Source of the DNA: an uncultured Lachnospiraceae bacterium | Lineage (GTDB): Bacteria > Bacillota > Clostridia > Lachnospirales > Lachnospiraceae | DNA: 64,000 nt | Reading direction: 5' to 3' | Assembly: GCA_947564735.1 (NCBI GenBank) | Contig: CANOEC010000003.1 | Span: 124,001-188,000 of the forward strand | Shown here: positions 35,984-57,744 of the stretch, one piece after another | Position numbering within the stretch: the first letter of the stretch is position 1 | How the letters are laid out: each line of letters starts with the position of its first letter | Translations under genes and position numbers: made by a program | Notes under the pieces: generated by a model | What the model was told of the DNA's origin: nothing | The model's input: the letters and a program-made list of their open reading frames with translations, nothing else | The model's database searches: none

Positions 35984-36988
35984 TTATCGCCGCCCTTTCA
36001 GTCCTTCAAGTTCTCTGCGGAGCATTGCAATTTCTTCATCTCTTTCTTGTATAAGCTTGGCACTCTGCGCTATTTCTTCTTCACGCTCCTGTATAAGCTT
36101 GGCACTCTGCGCTATCTCTTCTTCACGCTCCTGTATGAGCTTGGCACTCTGCGCTATCTCATTTTCTCTCTGTGCCAAAATATTTATCTGTTCTGCAATT
36201 TTACCATCTTTCTCCACGATAACCCTTTGATAATTTGCAATGTCCCTATCCCGCTGCGAAACCGCTCTCTCATAATTACGCAAATCCTGATAATATTCCT
36301 CACGGTCGCGGCACATCTTGCGTACCTGTTCGTCAGTATTAAATTTAAATATTGTTTCCGCTGCCTCATTCATACATTCGTCTTTCGATGCCAGCATTCT
36401 CATTTCCTCCCAAGTTATTGCCTTAAAAAGTAATGCCCACTCATGTATATGATACCTTTTATCTTCTTCCGTTGCCAAATCTATACGAGATAAGTCTATC
36501 ACATTCAGTGTGATGCTGTCACTATATTTTTGATGATTTTTTACGTTTATCAGTTTATAAGAAGCATAAAATTCAGGATATTCATCAAATAATGTATAAT
36601 TCAGAAAACCAATATGTATCACCGGTCTTGCCTCTGTATAATCCTGTCCGTGCTCCAATTGGTCAAAGGAACGGCACAGATACATGACTGAGCGTTCTTT
36701 CCAGTTCAATTTATTGGTAATCTGCATTTCAAGATTAATCAATGTACTATCATTTAGAAGCACATTGATATCCAGACGCATTTCCTTGTCTTCAACCGCC
36801 TTTCCCAAAATGACAGGGTTGACAATTTCGACAGAGATTACTTCCGTCTCTGACAGATGCAGCAGGGAGCATATCAGTCCACGAAGCACTTTGTTATTTG
36901 ACTGCAAAACTGCCCGGAACATATAATCATTCGTCATACCATAGGGGATTGCGCCATGCGCGCGTTGAAATTGTTGATTCAGATTCAT
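35984..36988 (-). CDS. Rpn-family PD-(D/E)XK nuclease/transposase with coiled-coil repeats
   Basis: A 334-aa protein of the Rpn/PD-(D/E)XK transposase-like family. The nuclease part covers about 15-200: MTNDYMFRAVLQ, EMRLDINVLLND (catalytic Asp) and LINLEMQI (Glu-x-Gln). YLCRSFDQLEHGQDY and PVIHIGFLNYTLF are family signatures. In Escherichia coli Rpn proteins promote RecA-independent recombination. The C-terminal third is a coiled coil with three near-identical 14-residue repeats (EIAQSAKLIQEREE). A GC-rich hairpin lies in its leader (37019-37033). Such genes are often abundant in Lachnospiraceae. The next gene starts 2 bp later. Confidence 0.88.
   Translation of the reverse strand: MNLNQQFQRAHGAIPYGMTNDYMFRAVLQSNNKVLRGLICSLLHLSETEVISVEIVNPVILGKAVEDKEMRLDINVLLNDSTLINLEMQITNKLNWKERSVMYLCRSFDQLEHGQDYTEARPVIHIGFLNYTLFDEYPEFYASYKLINVKNHQKYSDSITLNVIDLSRIDLATEEDKRYHIHEWALLFKAITWEEMRMLASKDECMNEAAETIFKFNTDEQVRKMCRDREEYYQDLRNYERAVSQRDRDIANYQRVIVEKDGKIAEQINILAQRENEIAQSAKLIQEREEEIAQSAKLIQEREEEIAQSAKLIQERDEEIAMLRRELEGLKGRR
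36051..36176. repeat. 42-bp in-frame tandem repeat, three units
   Basis: Units start at 36051, 36093 and 36135. The first two differ at one base and the third diverges in its second half. They encode the 14-residue coiled-coil repeats of the Rpn-type protein. Confidence 0.9.
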
Positions 36989-39288: not shown

Positions 39289-41463
39289 CTATCTCCACCT
39301 GCGGTCGTGCGGATACCTGTGCATGGAACGCCGCACTCTGTCGTCCTCCTCGCCTACCGCATGATAACATTCCTGACAAATCGGATAAGCATAATCCCAT
39401 GGAAGAACCGCTCCGCAGCCACGGCATTTTTTTTCAAACTGTCCCTTATCCTCCTTGAGCAGTTCACCAATCTCATGCTGCGCCCACTCTCTGTTGACCG
39501 CCACCTCTTCCTTATCCACTTCCCAATTCATCCTGCCGGAAAACTGCGTATATAAATCCAGCTGCTTATAATAGGACTCCAGCCCTTCCAATGAAAAATC
39601 CTGCGGCAGCATCGGACAATTATGAAACTGCGTCGGTTTCTCACAATACTTAAGCCACAGCCGCAGCACCTCCCTGTCTTTGACGTCAAAGGGACATGTA
39701 ATCAGCGACAGCACAAATTTCCGGTCTTCCATATATGTCAGCTTCTTACGGTAATTCTTAAGATAGCGGTATTTCTTCACGCTCTCCGCCATGGAAATCT
39801 TGTCGTACATGGGTAGATTCTTCGTCCGCTCCCACGCTTCAATGATTTCATCCATTTCCATATCAATATCCAATAGTACCTCCGGAAACCCAATCCTTGC
39901 TCTTTTTAACGAATAAAGCGGCTCTTCCAGCTTCTTACCGATATACTCGATATCCATCGCCGACTGCACATATCCCACATCATAATAACCGTATCTGCCC
40001 GCACGTCCCGCAATCTGCCTGATTTCCTCCGCTTCCAGCCTGCGCTTGTCCGTACCGTCAAACTTCATGCTGTTCATGAACACGATGCGCCTGATGGGCA
40101 GATTAATACCCATCCCGATAGCATCCGTCGCCACCACCACCTGATTGATTCCTTCCGTAAAAAGCCGTACCTGCTCCTGTCTCGTCTGGGGCGGCAGATT
40201 CCCATAAATAACACTTGCTTTGATTCCTCTGCCCTCAAGCGATGCCGCAATTGCCAGCACGTTTTTTTTGGAAAAAGCAATCAGCGCGTCGCCCGGTTCC
40301 ACGTCCTTGCCCATATCGAAGCGCTTGGGGATAAACTCCAGCTTCGTATTGCGCTCATGGCGTACAATCTCGTATGTGTCACTGCATCTTCTAATCATTC
40401 TGACCAAAAGATTCTCCGCCGTGCCGGAGCAGCACACATGAATCTCCTCGGCGCGAATGCCGAGAAGCGCCCGTGTCCAGAAACTTCCTCTGTTCTCGTC
40501 CGCCATCATCTGCGCCTCATCGATCACCGCGATATCGTACACTTCTCTGATATCCAGTATCTCCACCGTGGACGCCTGCACGAAGCTTCCCGGCGTGCGA
40601 ATCGCTTCTTCTCCCGTAATCATGCTGCACGGAATGCCCGCCGCCATCATCCTGTCATAGACTTCCAGCGCCAGAAGACGAAGGGGTCCTAAATAGATTC
40701 CATGATAAGCCTGTCTCAGCCTCTGCAGCGCCTGATAGGTCTTGCCGCTGTTGGTCGGTCCGATATGCAGGATAAAATGGCGTTTCATACCCCGCGCCTC
40801 CGGATACTGTTTCTCCGGCTCCGCTTCCATCAGTTCCTCAATCCGCTGTCCCACGAGATACTGCATATACTCCTCTTTGTAGATTTCATAAAGCGATTTC
40901 GTGCGCAGAAGCTCTGCGGTCTTCTTCATCTGCACCACGTCTTCCGGATTGACTCCATTAGTCATTTTATTTAAAAAGGAAATATCCAGCCTTACCAGCA
41001 TACGCAATGTATGTTTGTATTTTTTGAGCAGCCTTTTCTCCTTACGGGTCGCCACCGTATATCCGATTGCAACGGCGCGTTTATGCAGTTCTTTCATATC
41101 CGCCAGTATCTGGTGGCTTTCCTGTCCCTTCTTACGCGCGATACGTCTTTCCAACTGACCGATTTGTTTCTCGACGCCCTTGAGCAATCTGCGCTGTTCA
41201 TTCACTTCAAACCTAAGAAATGCATTGATGTAAGTCAGCCAGACCGTCTCAGGTATATCGTTCTTGATGCGGTTTTCTTCCACATCATACTCCTCTGCTC
41301 CATCTTCTTTCACATCTGTCTCTTCTGCTCCGGTTTCTAATGTCCTGCAGTCTTCCGCTCTGGTTTCTTCTGCTTTGGTTTTTTCCGCTCTGGTCTCTAA
41401 TATTTCATCCGCCATATTATGTTCTCTCTTCTTATTTTCCGGCATGTTTTTACCCTGTCTCAT
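39289..41463 (-). CDS. SUV3-like DExH RNA helicase
   Basis: A 724-aa superfamily 2 helicase that resembles mitochondrial SUV3, the RNA helicase of the degradosome. Walker A is GPTNSGKT (235-242), motif II is DEAQ (315-318), motif VI is QIAGRAGRYG, and the second RecA domain contains ATDAIGMGINLPI. Before the core is a coiled-coil region (about 85-155) and a repetitive acidic leader (ETRAEKTKAEETRAE). A four-Cys zinc knuckle (CRGCG ... CQEC) is near the C-terminus. It begins 38 bp after the GTPase-NYN gene on the same strand and is probably cotranscribed. Likely job: unwinding structured or ribosome-associated RNA. Confidence 0.92.
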   Translation of the reverse strand: MRQGKNMPENKKREHNMADEILETRAEKTKAEETRAEDCRTLETGAEETDVKEDGAEEYDVEENRIKNDIPETVWLTYINAFLRFEVNEQRRLLKGVEKQIGQLERRIARKKGQESHQILADMKELHKRAVAIGYTVATRKEKRLLKKYKHTLRMLVRLDISFLNKMTNGVNPEDVVQMKKTAELLRTKSLYEIYKEEYMQYLVGQRIEELMEAEPEKQYPEARGMKRHFILHIGPTNSGKTYQALQRLRQAYHGIYLGPLRLLALEVYDRMMAAGIPCSMITGEEAIRTPGSFVQASTVEILDIREVYDIAVIDEAQMMADENRGSFWTRALLGIRAEEIHVCCSGTAENLLVRMIRRCSDTYEIVRHERNTKLEFIPKRFDMGKDVEPGDALIAFSKKNVLAIAASLEGRGIKASVIYGNLPPQTRQEQVRLFTEGINQVVVATDAIGMGINLPIRRIVFMNSMKFDGTDKRRLEAEEIRQIAGRAGRYGYYDVGYVQSAMDIEYIGKKLEEPLYSLKRARIGFPEVLLDIDMEMDEIIEAWERTKNLPMYDKISMAESVKKYRYLKNYRKKLTYMEDRKFVLSLITCPFDVKDREVLRLWLKYCEKPTQFHNCPMLPQDFSLEGLESYYKQLDLYTQFSGRMNWEVDKEEVAVNREWAQHEIGELLKEDKGQFEKKCRGCGAVLPWDYAYPICQECYHAVGEEDDRVRRSMHRYPHDRRWR

Positions 41464-41501
41464 TATCCTATCCTGTTTATCTTTTGCCCTGCTGGGCGGT
41501 T

Positions 41502-44369
41502 TTACTCGTCCGTTCCCTGTCTCATACGCTCCACATATGCCGTCACATCATCGTCCGCGTCTTCCAGCAGATACTTTTTACCATCCGAAGGTTTTCCGGG
41601 ACGATCGAGAAACACCTGTCTCAGTTCCTTTGCAACAGCCATGATTTCATCCTGCAATTCCCTTGCCGACACGCGTACCGCGCCTGCACCCATGATGATA
41701 AGCTGTTCCAGCCCATCGGATGTCGCCACCCTCACACGGTGCTTCCTGCCAATCTCATGCGTCACTTTCTCGATATACTGGTCCGCCGTCTCAGCTTCCT
41801 TCGTGTACACAACGTCAATGTTATGATATCGGACCGTGCTTCCGGGATTCCCCTTCACTTTATAAGCGTCAAAGACTAAGATAAGTCTCATCTTGCGGTA
41901 TCCCTGAAAATTACTCAGAATATCCATCAGTCTGCCCCGCGCACTGTCAAGATTCGTCTGCGCCAGTTCATTTAAGGAATCCCACGCAAATATAATATTA
42001 TACCCGTCCACCAGTAAATACTCTTCGTCTGTGCGGCTGTCATGGCTCTGTCCTGCCGTATTCCCTGCACGTGCCGCCCCACCCGCCGCTTTTCCTTCCG
42101 AATCGGGTTTCGATTGCCGCATAGGGCTCTCGCCTGCTCTTCTGGCGCGTATCGTCCTTGCCCAGCCCTGCTTCTTTCTTTCTTTTGTGCCGTATGTGCG
42201 GTTCATGATTTCATCAATCTCATCCTGTCCGATAACATCTGATATGCCGCCCGATTGCTTCCTGCCGCCAATTCTCGCATGCCCGTTTCTGATTTCCCCG
42301 CTTGTATTCTGTCCCTGTCCGGTGCTCCCTTCCGATGGCAGTCCTGAGCCTTCTTCGCCAGCATCTGTCCGCGTATATTGACCGTCCTTTGTCACATACG
42401 CAAGATGCATATATTCTTCCACCTGATCCCATTCCACCACGAATCCTGCTCCATGGGCACAAAACACGGAACTGCACGGATTATCCATATCTCGCTCCGC
42501 CTCGTAGCCTGTCGCCGCAATCACCGCCTCGGCATTATGACACGGCTCATATCCTTTTAATTCTGTATACAGTCTGCCCTTTCCGCCCGAATAAGCCAAC
42601 ACCTGCGCCTGATATCCCGCCATCTCGGACGCCGGAACCGTACCCGTAAGCACAGCATACTCTCCCTCCGTCCAAGGCGCGTCAAACTGTCCGCACTTCG
42701 CCTGCATATCGGTCATTCCGCGTCCAATCATCGCCGCCGGCAGTTCCAGTCTGAACGCATATACCGGCTCTAACAGTATATTCTGTGTCCGGCATAAACC
42801 CTGTCTGACGGCACGGTAAGTCGCCTGCCTGAAATCTCCGCCCTCCGTATGCTTCAAATGCGCACGCCCTGTCACAAGCGTAATCTGTATATCTGTGAGC
42901 GGTGAACCGGTCAAAACGCCCACATGCTCTTTTTCCTCCAAATGCGTCATAACAAGGCGCTGCCAGTTCCGGTCAAGCACATCCTCGCTGCAGTCTGTAC
43001 GAAACTGCAGTCCGCTGCCCGGCTCCCCCGGTTCCAAGAGCAAATGCACTTCCGCATAGTGTCTGAGGGGTTCGTAGTGTCCGACACCTTCCACTGCAGC
43101 CGTTATCGTCTCCTTATAGACAATGCTGCCCGTATCAAAAGTTACTTCCACGCCAAACCGGTCGGCAATCAGATTGCGCAGAATCTCAATCTGCACTTCG
43201 CCCATCAGCTGCACCTGAATCTCGCCAACCTGCGCCTTCCACACGATATGAAGCTGCGGCTCTTCCTCCTCAAGTTGACATAACATATTATACATCCGAT
43301 GCACATCGCATCCTTCCGGCAGTACAATACGATACGTCATCACAGGCTCAAGCACCGGAACCGTATTGCCTTCCTCCATCCCCAGCCCTTCCCCGCTGAA
43401 CGTAGATGCCGGACCCGTCAGGGCACAGACGCACCCTGCCGTTACTTCCTGCTCCACGCTATATTTATCGCCCGAATAAACCCGAATCTGATCCACTTTC
43501 TCTTCCGTCACGTTATCCGCCGCGCCCATGTCCGCAGCATACTTTCCACCGCGTCCATGTGTGGAGATTGTCTGTTTTACCTTAAGCGCACCGCCCGTAA
43601 TCTTCACATGCGTCAGCCGGTTTCCCTGCGCATCTCTGGAAATCTTATATACTCTCGCCCCGAATGACTCTTCATATAAAGGCATTCTCATATACATGGC
43701 TAACCCGTCCAATAATTCCGTAACCCCTTCCACCTTGAGCGCCGAACCAAAAAAGCACGGAAATACCTTGCGTTCTTTGACTAATTTTGTAATTTCTTCA
43801 TCTTCAATGGTATCCACACCATCCGTCGCAAGATACTGCGTAAGAATTTCTTCATCACATACCGCAATATCCTCAAAAAACGCCGCGTCCCGGCTGCCAA
43901 ACGCAACACACCGCTCATCCAGCTTTTCCTTCATCTCGCCCATAAGCCACTCTGCATCGGTATCCGGCTGATCCATCTTGTTGACAAAAAGAAATACCGG
44001 CACATGATATCTTGCAAGCAGCCGCCAGAGCGTAGAGACATGTCCCTGTATACCGTCCGCGCCGCTGATCACCAGCACCGCGTAGTCAAGTATCTGCAAA
44101 GTCCTCTCCATTTCCGCCGAAAAATCCACGTGCCCCGGCGTGTCCATCAGGGTAATTTCCATATCTTTCCAGCGTAGTACAGCCTGCTTGGAAAAAATCG
44201 TAATTCCCCGGTCCCGCTCCTGCCTGTCCGTGTCCAGAAAGGCGTCCTTGTGGTCTACCCGTCCCATTTTGCGTATACTGCCGCTTGTATATAATATGCT
44301 CTCCGCCAAAGTGGTCTTTCCGGCGTCCACATGCGCCAGAATCCCAACTACCAGTTTCTTGCTGCTCAT
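41502..44369 (-). CDS. TetM-like ribosomal GTPase fused to Rae1/YacP-type NYN nuclease domain
   Basis: A 955-aa protein with two halves. Residues 1-660 are a full elongation-factor-G-like GTPase nearest to ribosomal protection proteins: AHVDAGKT (12-19), RGITIF (54-59), DTPGH (76-80), NKMD (130-133), and a C-terminal LAYSGGKGRLYTELKGYEP. The domain IV loop that in TetM holds the Ser-Pro-Val tip reads HLKHTEGGDF (504-513), so tetracycline displacement is unlikely. After a Gly/Ser/Arg-rich linker, residues 781-955 match YacP/Rae1: LLVDGYNIIFAW (Asp788), LVFDAYKVKG (Asp834), KEAETADQYIE (Asp863) and VATSDGLEQ (Asp885). Rae1 is a ribosome-dependent mRNA endonuclease. The helicase gene follows at 38 bp. 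Confidence 0.93.
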   Translation of the reverse strand: MSSKKLVVGILAHVDAGKTTLAESILYTSGSIRKMGRVDHKDAFLDTDRQERDRGITIFSKQAVLRWKDMEITLMDTPGHVDFSAEMERTLQILDYAVLVISGADGIQGHVSTLWRLLARYHVPVFLFVNKMDQPDTDAEWLMGEMKEKLDERCVAFGSRDAAFFEDIAVCDEEILTQYLATDGVDTIEDEEITKLVKERKVFPCFFGSALKVEGVTELLDGLAMYMRMPLYEESFGARVYKISRDAQGNRLTHVKITGGALKVKQTISTHGRGGKYAADMGAADNVTEEKVDQIRVYSGDKYSVEQEVTAGCVCALTGPASTFSGEGLGMEEGNTVPVLEPVMTYRIVLPEGCDVHRMYNMLCQLEEEEPQLHIVWKAQVGEIQVQLMGEVQIEILRNLIADRFGVEVTFDTGSIVYKETITAAVEGVGHYEPLRHYAEVHLLLEPGEPGSGLQFRTDCSEDVLDRNWQRLVMTHLEEKEHVGVLTGSPLTDIQITLVTGRAHLKHTEGGDFRQATYRAVRQGLCRTQNILLEPVYAFRLELPAAMIGRGMTDMQAKCGQFDAPWTEGEYAVLTGTVPASEMAGYQAQVLAYSGGKGRLYTELKGYEPCHNAEAVIAATGYEAERDMDNPCSSVFCAHGAGFVVEWDQVEEYMHLAYVTKDGQYTRTDAGEEGSGLPSEGSTGQGQNTSGEIRNGHARIGGRKQSGGISDVIGQDEIDEIMNRTYGTKERKKQGWARTIRARRAGESPMRQSKPDSEGKAAGGAARAGNTAGQSHDSRTDEEYLLVDGYNIIFAWDSLNELAQTNLDSARGRLMDILSNFQGYRKMRLILVFDAYKVKGNPGSTVRYHNIDVVYTKEAETADQYIEKVTHEIGRKHRVRVATSDGLEQLIIMGAGAVRVSARELQDEIMAVAKELRQVFLDRPGKPSDGKKYLLEDADDDVTAYVERMRQGTDE

Positions 44370-57431: not shown

Positions 57432-57744
57432 GATGATGTTGGGGTCAAAAGGTGCTCTGGCGATTTTATATCGGCAGATTGCACAAAATATTCGCGAAGC
57501 TGTCCTGTGTAGTCATATGAGATTTTCTTATATGTTCCGTACAATATTCAGAAATTTCGGGACACGGATGTCCCGAAAAGCCCGTCATGAGCCCGGATGG
57601 AGAATAGAGGGCGGTTTCGTCCGCGTCCAAAACCTTTCATGGAATATTTAGAAAATCCATATGACGAAACCCAACACAAGGGAATATTTTGTGCAATCTG
57701 CCATCTTACATTTACCAAAAGCACCTTTTGACCCCAACATCATC
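57432..57744. repeat. 313-bp inverted-repeat element, MITE-like
   Basis: The ends are perfect 25-bp inverted repeats (57432-57456 and 57720-57744, beginning GATGATGTTGGGG). Inside them are perfect 21-bp inverted repeats (57473-57493 and 57682-57702, beginning GGCAGATTGCAC). The centre has a 9-bp hairpin (TTCGGGACA / TGTCCCGAA, 57556-57577) and GGTTTCGTC / GACGAAACC arms (57613-57671). Partial copies occur at 24877-24920 and 33753-33833. It holds no convincing gene. It is either a nonautonomous mobile element or a large structured RNA. Confidence 0.85.

Follow-up and report, generated by a model that had tools for sequence, protein, structure and literature searches.

A ribosome-type GTPase joined to a Rae1-like NYN nuclease in Lachnospiraceae: a candidate translation-coupled endoribonuclease that seems to stand in for Rae1

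How bacteria choose the ribosome-bound mRNAs that they cut is only partly understood, and a gene found in the genome of an uncultured Lachnospiraceae bacterium (4.52 Mb in 102 contigs) bears on that question. The window, that is the whole stretch of DNA that was analysed, comprises 64,000 nucleotides (C3:124001-188000). On its minus strand, at 41502..44369, lies a gene for a protein of 955 aa in which an EF-G-type translational GTPase, a disordered linker and a YacP/Rae1-type NYN nuclease follow one another. The next gene downstream on that strand, 38 bp away (39289..41463, minus strand), encodes a Suv3-like DEXQ-box helicase of 724 aa. A sequence-only reading of this DNA had described the first gene as a TetM-like GTPase carrying an NYN nuclease, and the two genes together as a possible system for ribosome rescue and mRNA clearance. 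Is the joining real, what is each of its halves, and does the helicase belong with it?

The features of the fusion gene all lie on the minus strand. Pfam placed the G domain at residues 7-227 (43689..44351; GTP_EFTU, 174.8 bits), with the motifs AHVDAGKT, DTPGH, NKMD and GSAL present. Domains III, IV and V were located at residues 341-613 (42531..43349) by Pfam and the structure model; the matches to EFG_III (341-411, 32.9 bits), EFG_IV (415-527, 63.3 bits) and EFG_C (532-613, 60 bits) were, like that to GTP_EFTU, above their cut-offs. No Pfam model matched domain II, and the corresponding region (residues 237-330) appeared as beta strands in the structure model. With its four G motifs and its EF-G-type domains, domain II being taken from the model only, this half belongs to the EF-2 family of translational GTPases. 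Alignments delimited the tip loop of domain IV, GRAHLKHTEGGDFR, at residues 501-514 (42828..42869) and a conserved C-terminal extension of the GTPase at residues 634-655 (42405..42470). A linker at residues 660-781 (42027..42392), mostly with pLDDT <50, leads to the NYN_YacP nuclease domain at residues 785-950 (41520..42017), which scored 167.5 bits against a Pfam cut-off of 24.6 and contains Asp 788, 834, 863 and 885. Open reading frame, Pfam matches and alignments thus agree with the earlier description of a single gene that combines an EF-G-type GTPase with a YacP/Rae1-type NYN domain bearing four aspartates.

The GTPase and the NYN domain shared one frame in all 40 regions that were fetched, which had mostly been picked for a long frame and one of which ends at a contig edge. 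Frames of at least 800 residues were treated as fused-length, a definition confirmed by sequence in the fetched regions and by position in the class sample, where the NYN match lay within 1 kb after the GTPase and on the same strand in 80 of the 82 genomes with both matches listed. In the two exceptions, G224 and G328, the NYN match was on another contig. The joining is confirmed as real and not a chance artefact. At two loci, L130 (in G415) and L170 (in G221), the fused gene was broken into two frames, by decay or by assembly error.

Both activities, GTPase and nuclease, look intact from the residues that are kept. The four G motifs were retained in 50-51 of 51 fused rows. The four aspartates were invariant in a 24-row alignment and were also found in 50/50 fused and 32/32 standalone NYN rows; because the fused NYN rows were chosen by the string DGYN, the conservation of D788 and N791 is circular there. 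One fused row omitted for lack of this string, L186, reads DAYN and by eye has the four aspartates. The NYN part aligned to B. subtilis YacP/Rae1 (PDB 5mq9 and 5mq8) with E values of 4e-27 and 5e-27.

The fusion provides the only NYN_YacP match in its own genome. There the gene order YgbB-cysS-mrnC-rlmB-[GDSL hydrolase]-sigma factor is kept, as named from Pfam matches, with yacP absent from its slot, and no standalone NYN gene stands beside rlmB as it does in relatives. Such a gene was found between rlmB and the sigma gene in G402 and, by eye, likewise in G421 and G210; the standalone NYN gene of G243 sits outside the rlmB slot. Among the class genomes with a fused-length frame, NYN_YacP was a single match in 120 of 125, and two matches were present in the other five (G133, G136, G201, G242 and G330). 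Since it is the sole NYN_YacP protein in nearly all of these genomes and the yacP slot is empty here, the fusion seems to stand in for ordinary Rae1. In the family sample, seven genomes with an NYN frame of 174-260 aa were searched for the GTPase; the count of standalone NYN genes excludes a split fusion (G415) and a gene at a contig edge (G454). Five of the seven (G243, G402, G421, G426 and G457) also had an unfused GTPase of the fusion kind, although the match in G457 spans residues 5-528 only; G431 had only a more distant GTPase (33%), and in G394 no GTPase of the fusion kind was found at E 1e-40.

The surroundings of yacP in relatives, where it adjoins mrnC- and rlmB-like genes, suit a different task for the nuclease, namely that the GTPase takes it to the ribosome or to a precursor subunit where it trims structured RNA. 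A role of the NYN domain in rRNA and tRNA maturation has been proposed (Anantharaman and Aravind 2006, as cited in the passages available from PMC4342817), but the literature passages at hand on Rae1 deal with mRNA, and we judge a function in maturation to be very improbable.

In most of the family genomes sampled, the NYN_YacP protein is one chain that combines the ribosome-type GTPase with the ribosome-associated nuclease: 120 of 130 had an NYN_YacP match and 109 a fused-length frame. The remaining 10 of the 130 had no NYN match, from which it follows that the factor is dispensable. Among the 391 genomes of the class sample, 249 had NYN and 164 had the GTPase with an E value of 1e-100 or better. 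GTPase frames were listed for 147 of these 164; 125 had at least 800 residues, 2 had 755-799, 16 were of unfused length and 4 were fragments. A cut at 755 instead of 800 would give 127 rather than 125, the proteins excluded at 800 being those of G081 (789) and G224 (760). Both domains occurred in 156 of the 391 genomes, the GTPase only in 8, NYN only in 93 and neither in 134, counts that ignore kinship and in which it is mostly the fused gene itself that is counted as both. The 8 GTPase-only genomes, one of which holds a contig-end fragment, led to the rejection of the idea that NYN always accompanies the GTPase. When 17 NYN-negative genomes were checked, no GTPase of the fusion kind was found, and two had Tet-type matches. 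In the phylum sample the GTPase was present in 24 of 348 genomes. A search of named records used two generic G-domain patterns; most of its 80 rows were distant GTPases of 26-31% identity; the upper rows, which were the ones used, came mainly from Lachnospiraceae and other Clostridia.

The sequence-only reading had called the GTPase TetM-like, and in the narrow sense this did not hold. The best NCBIfam match of the fusion was indeed tet_protect (NF012153), for which it scored 398.5 bits where 775 are required, and five unfused relatives scored 391-451 bits on the same model, whereas the Tet rows L145, L147 and L149 reached 880.5, 852.6 and 892.4 bits. With 285.7 bits, the fusion also fell short of the 659.4-bit cut-off of the EF-G model TIGR00484. 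A domain IV tip of the form KHTxGGDFR, or close to it, was present in 49 of 51 fused proteins (the exceptions being L172 and L194) and in all 28 unfused relatives. The four Tet reference rows had the Tet tip, of SPxSTPADFR type, and none of these 79 kin, fused or unfused, did. In a tree of 87 rows, built by a quick method and containing some long branches and open forks, the four Tet rows all fell outside the branch of the 79 kin, with support 100. By its sequence, the GTPase is outside Tet and forms a clade of its own with a near-invariant domain IV tip. Atkinson 2015 filed NYN-bearing GTPases as Tet, probably wrongly.

These results bear directly on the suggestion that the protein protects against antibiotics, being a Tet-type ribosomal protection protein to which the RNase domain adds a further resistance mechanism. 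This suggestion is in print (Atkinson 2015, in the passages available from PMC4342817), and the shared superfamily and the rank of tet_protect among the matches agree with it. In TetM a conserved proline of the tip region sits in the drug site (in the part seen of PMC8161019); TetM can stay active when residues of its tip loop are replaced (in the passages at hand from PMC4750697), so a differing tip would still be compatible with protection. Score, tip and tree position argue against it, as does the presence of the fusion in most sampled family genomes without a shared neighbourhood. A conserved operon around the fusion was rejected, since no neighbour was conserved among 51 loci and the largest cluster comprised 8 of the 51. 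We consider protection against antibiotics improbable.

The fused proteins fell into a single clade (SH-aLRT 99) that encloses two unfused rows from Actinomycetota, those of Collinsella (L188) and Bifidobacterium avesanii (L191), whose genes contain no NYN domain; to judge from the tree, transfer into Actinomycetota and subsequent loss of the nuclease probably account for them. The other 26 unfused rows clustered together with support 89, and the fused clade mostly has an unfused group as its sister. In the tree of NYN domains, a single branch of modest support (75/82) separated fused from standalone domains, which would fit a single origin and does not prove it; this tree and the genus tree of fusions also contain open forks. 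Most of 13 aligned unfused proteins stop directly after the conserved C-terminal extension, which indicates that the nuclease was appended to a protein that was already complete.

The GTPase appears to be useful without the nuclease as well, since 7 of the 16 listed class genomes with a GTPase of unfused length had no NYN match, these GTPases being complete, and since the two actinobacterial members lack the domain too. The same observations favour the reading that the two halves are merely tethered, the GTPase being a special-purpose translation factor in its own right and the NYN domain an ordinary Rae1 that gains co-expression and nearness to the ribosome. So does the linker, which is long and of variable length (67-140 residues in 40 proteins). 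In an AlphaFold2 model computed from 24 rows (mean pLDDT 78.3, pTM 0.60), the GTPase and nuclease parts were folded and confidence was low at residues 663-714 and 727-780; with this pTM and the linker disordered, no packing of the GTPase against the nuclease was indicated. Between the two low-confidence stretches lies a helix at residues 715-726, itself of low confidence, with which the short linker motif EIDEIMNRTY (residues 717-726; 42192..42221, minus strand) coincides. Its pattern, E[LIV]xx[IVL][FI]xxT[YF], was found in slightly looser form in 47 of 51 fused proteins. A conserved motif within the linker suggests more than a passive leash, and the joined state persists across many GTDB families; both speak against mere tethering, which we regard as unlikely.

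The reading preferred here is that the fusion is a chromosomal, translation-coupled endoribonuclease, a GTPase-delivered, Rae1-like cutter of mRNA that would replace yacP/rae1; we put the chance of this at about even. It agrees with the earlier proposal of translation-coupled mRNA cleavage, which is supported, as an inference, by the ribosome-type GTPase, the Rae1-type nuclease and the apparent replacement of Rae1. EF-G-type GTPase relatives bind the ribosomal A-site region (in the passages available from PMC8161019), so the nuclease could be brought there in a GTP-dependent manner; delivery, the order of steps and the targets are inferred. The GTPase part, whose fold is seen in sequence and model, would in its GTP form bind the A-site region, and the KHTxGGDFR tip of domain IV would reach the decoding centre. 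The NYN domain, on its flexible leash, would then cut the mRNA of the bound ribosome in the fashion of Rae1, and hydrolysis of GTP would free the factor from the ribosome. The Suv3-like helicase would be a separate RNA-handling gene, linked in the genus, that may help to clear fragments and would be unneeded for the core reaction. Because all of this would take place on one polypeptide, the order of events lends itself to tests that use GTP analogues and mutants in which the GTPase or the nuclease is dead. More tentatively, the fusion may be a GTP-gated cutter, in which a distinct GTPase subfamily senses the A-site state through its near-invariant tip and the linker motif licenses cutting by the tethered Rae1; this is possible but doubtful. 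If it were true, the fusion would be the main form of Rae1 in the family Lachnospiraceae and in many other Clostridia.

The helicase gene was found as described by the sequence-only reading, a SUV3-like helicase 38 bp from the fusion, with DEXQc_Suv3 matching residues 216-368 at 208.5 bits (cut-off 27), Helicase_C also above its cut-off and SUV3_C, with 20.3 bits, short of its 27-bit cut-off. The scan listed no minus-strand terminator-like site in the 38-bp gap, and the two genes are possibly co-transcribed here. Their spacing and common strand fit the idea of a two-gene module, in which fusion and helicase act jointly in ribosome rescue and mRNA clearance. The genus sample of 61 genomes fits it as well: the helicase was present in 58, the NYN gene in 55 and both in 55. 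Of these 55 pairs, 37 lay on one contig, always on the same strand and with the fusion upstream (37/37), and 18 on different contigs. The one-contig pairs comprised 36 within 20 kb (13 less than 2 kb and 23 at 5-17 kb apart) and one at 152 kb. Gaps in 11 inspected close pairs were 6-298 bp in 8 and 843-916 bp in 3. In a tree of 22 genus fusions the close pairs formed one subclade (89/87), which also includes one member with a 4.6-kb insert.

Other counts tell against the module. In part of the inspected pairs separated by 5-17 kb, genes on both strands lay between the two. The helicase matched in 18 of 130 family genomes, one of them below cut-off, against 109 with a fused-length frame, and in all 15 family genomes outside the genus that have both, helicase and NYN gene were on different contigs, these 15 being draft assemblies with some short contigs (5.3 kb in G456, 9.3 kb in G432). 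Conservation of the pair therefore held within the genus (36/55 within 20 kb) and failed elsewhere in the family. The family sample by itself had suggested that the pair lacks any conservation, a view rejected on the linkage in the genus sample. The order of fusion and helicase is a genus-level trait and does not belong to the wider system. The helicase as partner of the fusion is weakly supported, for by the genus linkage and against by the separate contigs, and to a joint module we give little credence, a shade less than to antibiotic protection. At L080 and L281-L284, where genes on both strands separate fusion from helicase, three of the intervening genes encode ~830-963 residues in similar order, and some resemble signalling genes by their first residues.

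Further features were recorded in the window and the genome. At its gathering threshold, Rfam gave a single match in the window, a TwoAYGGAY RNA (RF01731) of 103.1 bits at 57505-57672 on the plus strand. At 35984-36988 on the minus strand lies a gene for a PD-(D/E)XK transposase-family (Rpn-like) protein whose tail is, by eye, repetitive and charged. Six tmRNA matches in the genome all stayed below cut-off; the strongest was at the beginning of contig C78, where ARAGORN listed none. A separate EF-G-like gene adjoins an EF-Tu-like frame on contig C37, both named by similarity.

The architecture as such is already known. In the passages available from Atkinson 2015 (PMC4342817), ten clostridial species (Clostridiales) were reported to have 'Tet' proteins with NYN domains, and an RNase-based resistance mechanism was suggested for these proteins. 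This was the only paper describing the fusion found in a literature search that did not reach the key Rae1 papers and that returned no functional study of it; nor did the literature searched contain a description of a GTPase-controlled ribosome nuclease of this kind. What is added here is the separate clade with its own tip, the apparent replacement of Rae1, the breadth of occurrence and the linker motif.

Compared with known systems, the fusion resembles the NYN-'Tet' proteins of Atkinson 2015 in having the same architecture, a comparison made by description only; there, in the part of the paper at hand, they are filed as Tet, whereas here the GTPase forms a separate clade, differs in its tip and is more widely spread. 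With the Tet(M)-type ribosomal protection proteins the GTPase shares an EF-G-like domain order and 26-29% identity, and it differs from them in tip loop, NCBIfam score, tree position, C-terminal extension and the NYN domain. Foldseek returned proteins of EF-G or EF-2 type throughout the 50 matches listed, and the domain order is that of EF-G, but the fusion is only 24% identical to the EF-G of its own genome, has a different tip and falls below the TIGR00484 cut-off. The neighbouring helicase is like SUV3/SUPV3L1 in its DEXQ core (E 6.6e-72 to PDB 6f4a) and differs in its SUV3_C match below cut-off; it is Suv3-like by sequence, and the fusion is at most a candidate nuclease partner. The closest likeness of the nuclease half is to Rae1/YacP of B. 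subtilis, with which it shares the NYN_YacP domain and the four aspartates and is colinear over residues 784-934. Unlike Rae1, it is tethered by a long linker to a ribosome-type GTPase and is encoded outside the rlmB-sigma slot.
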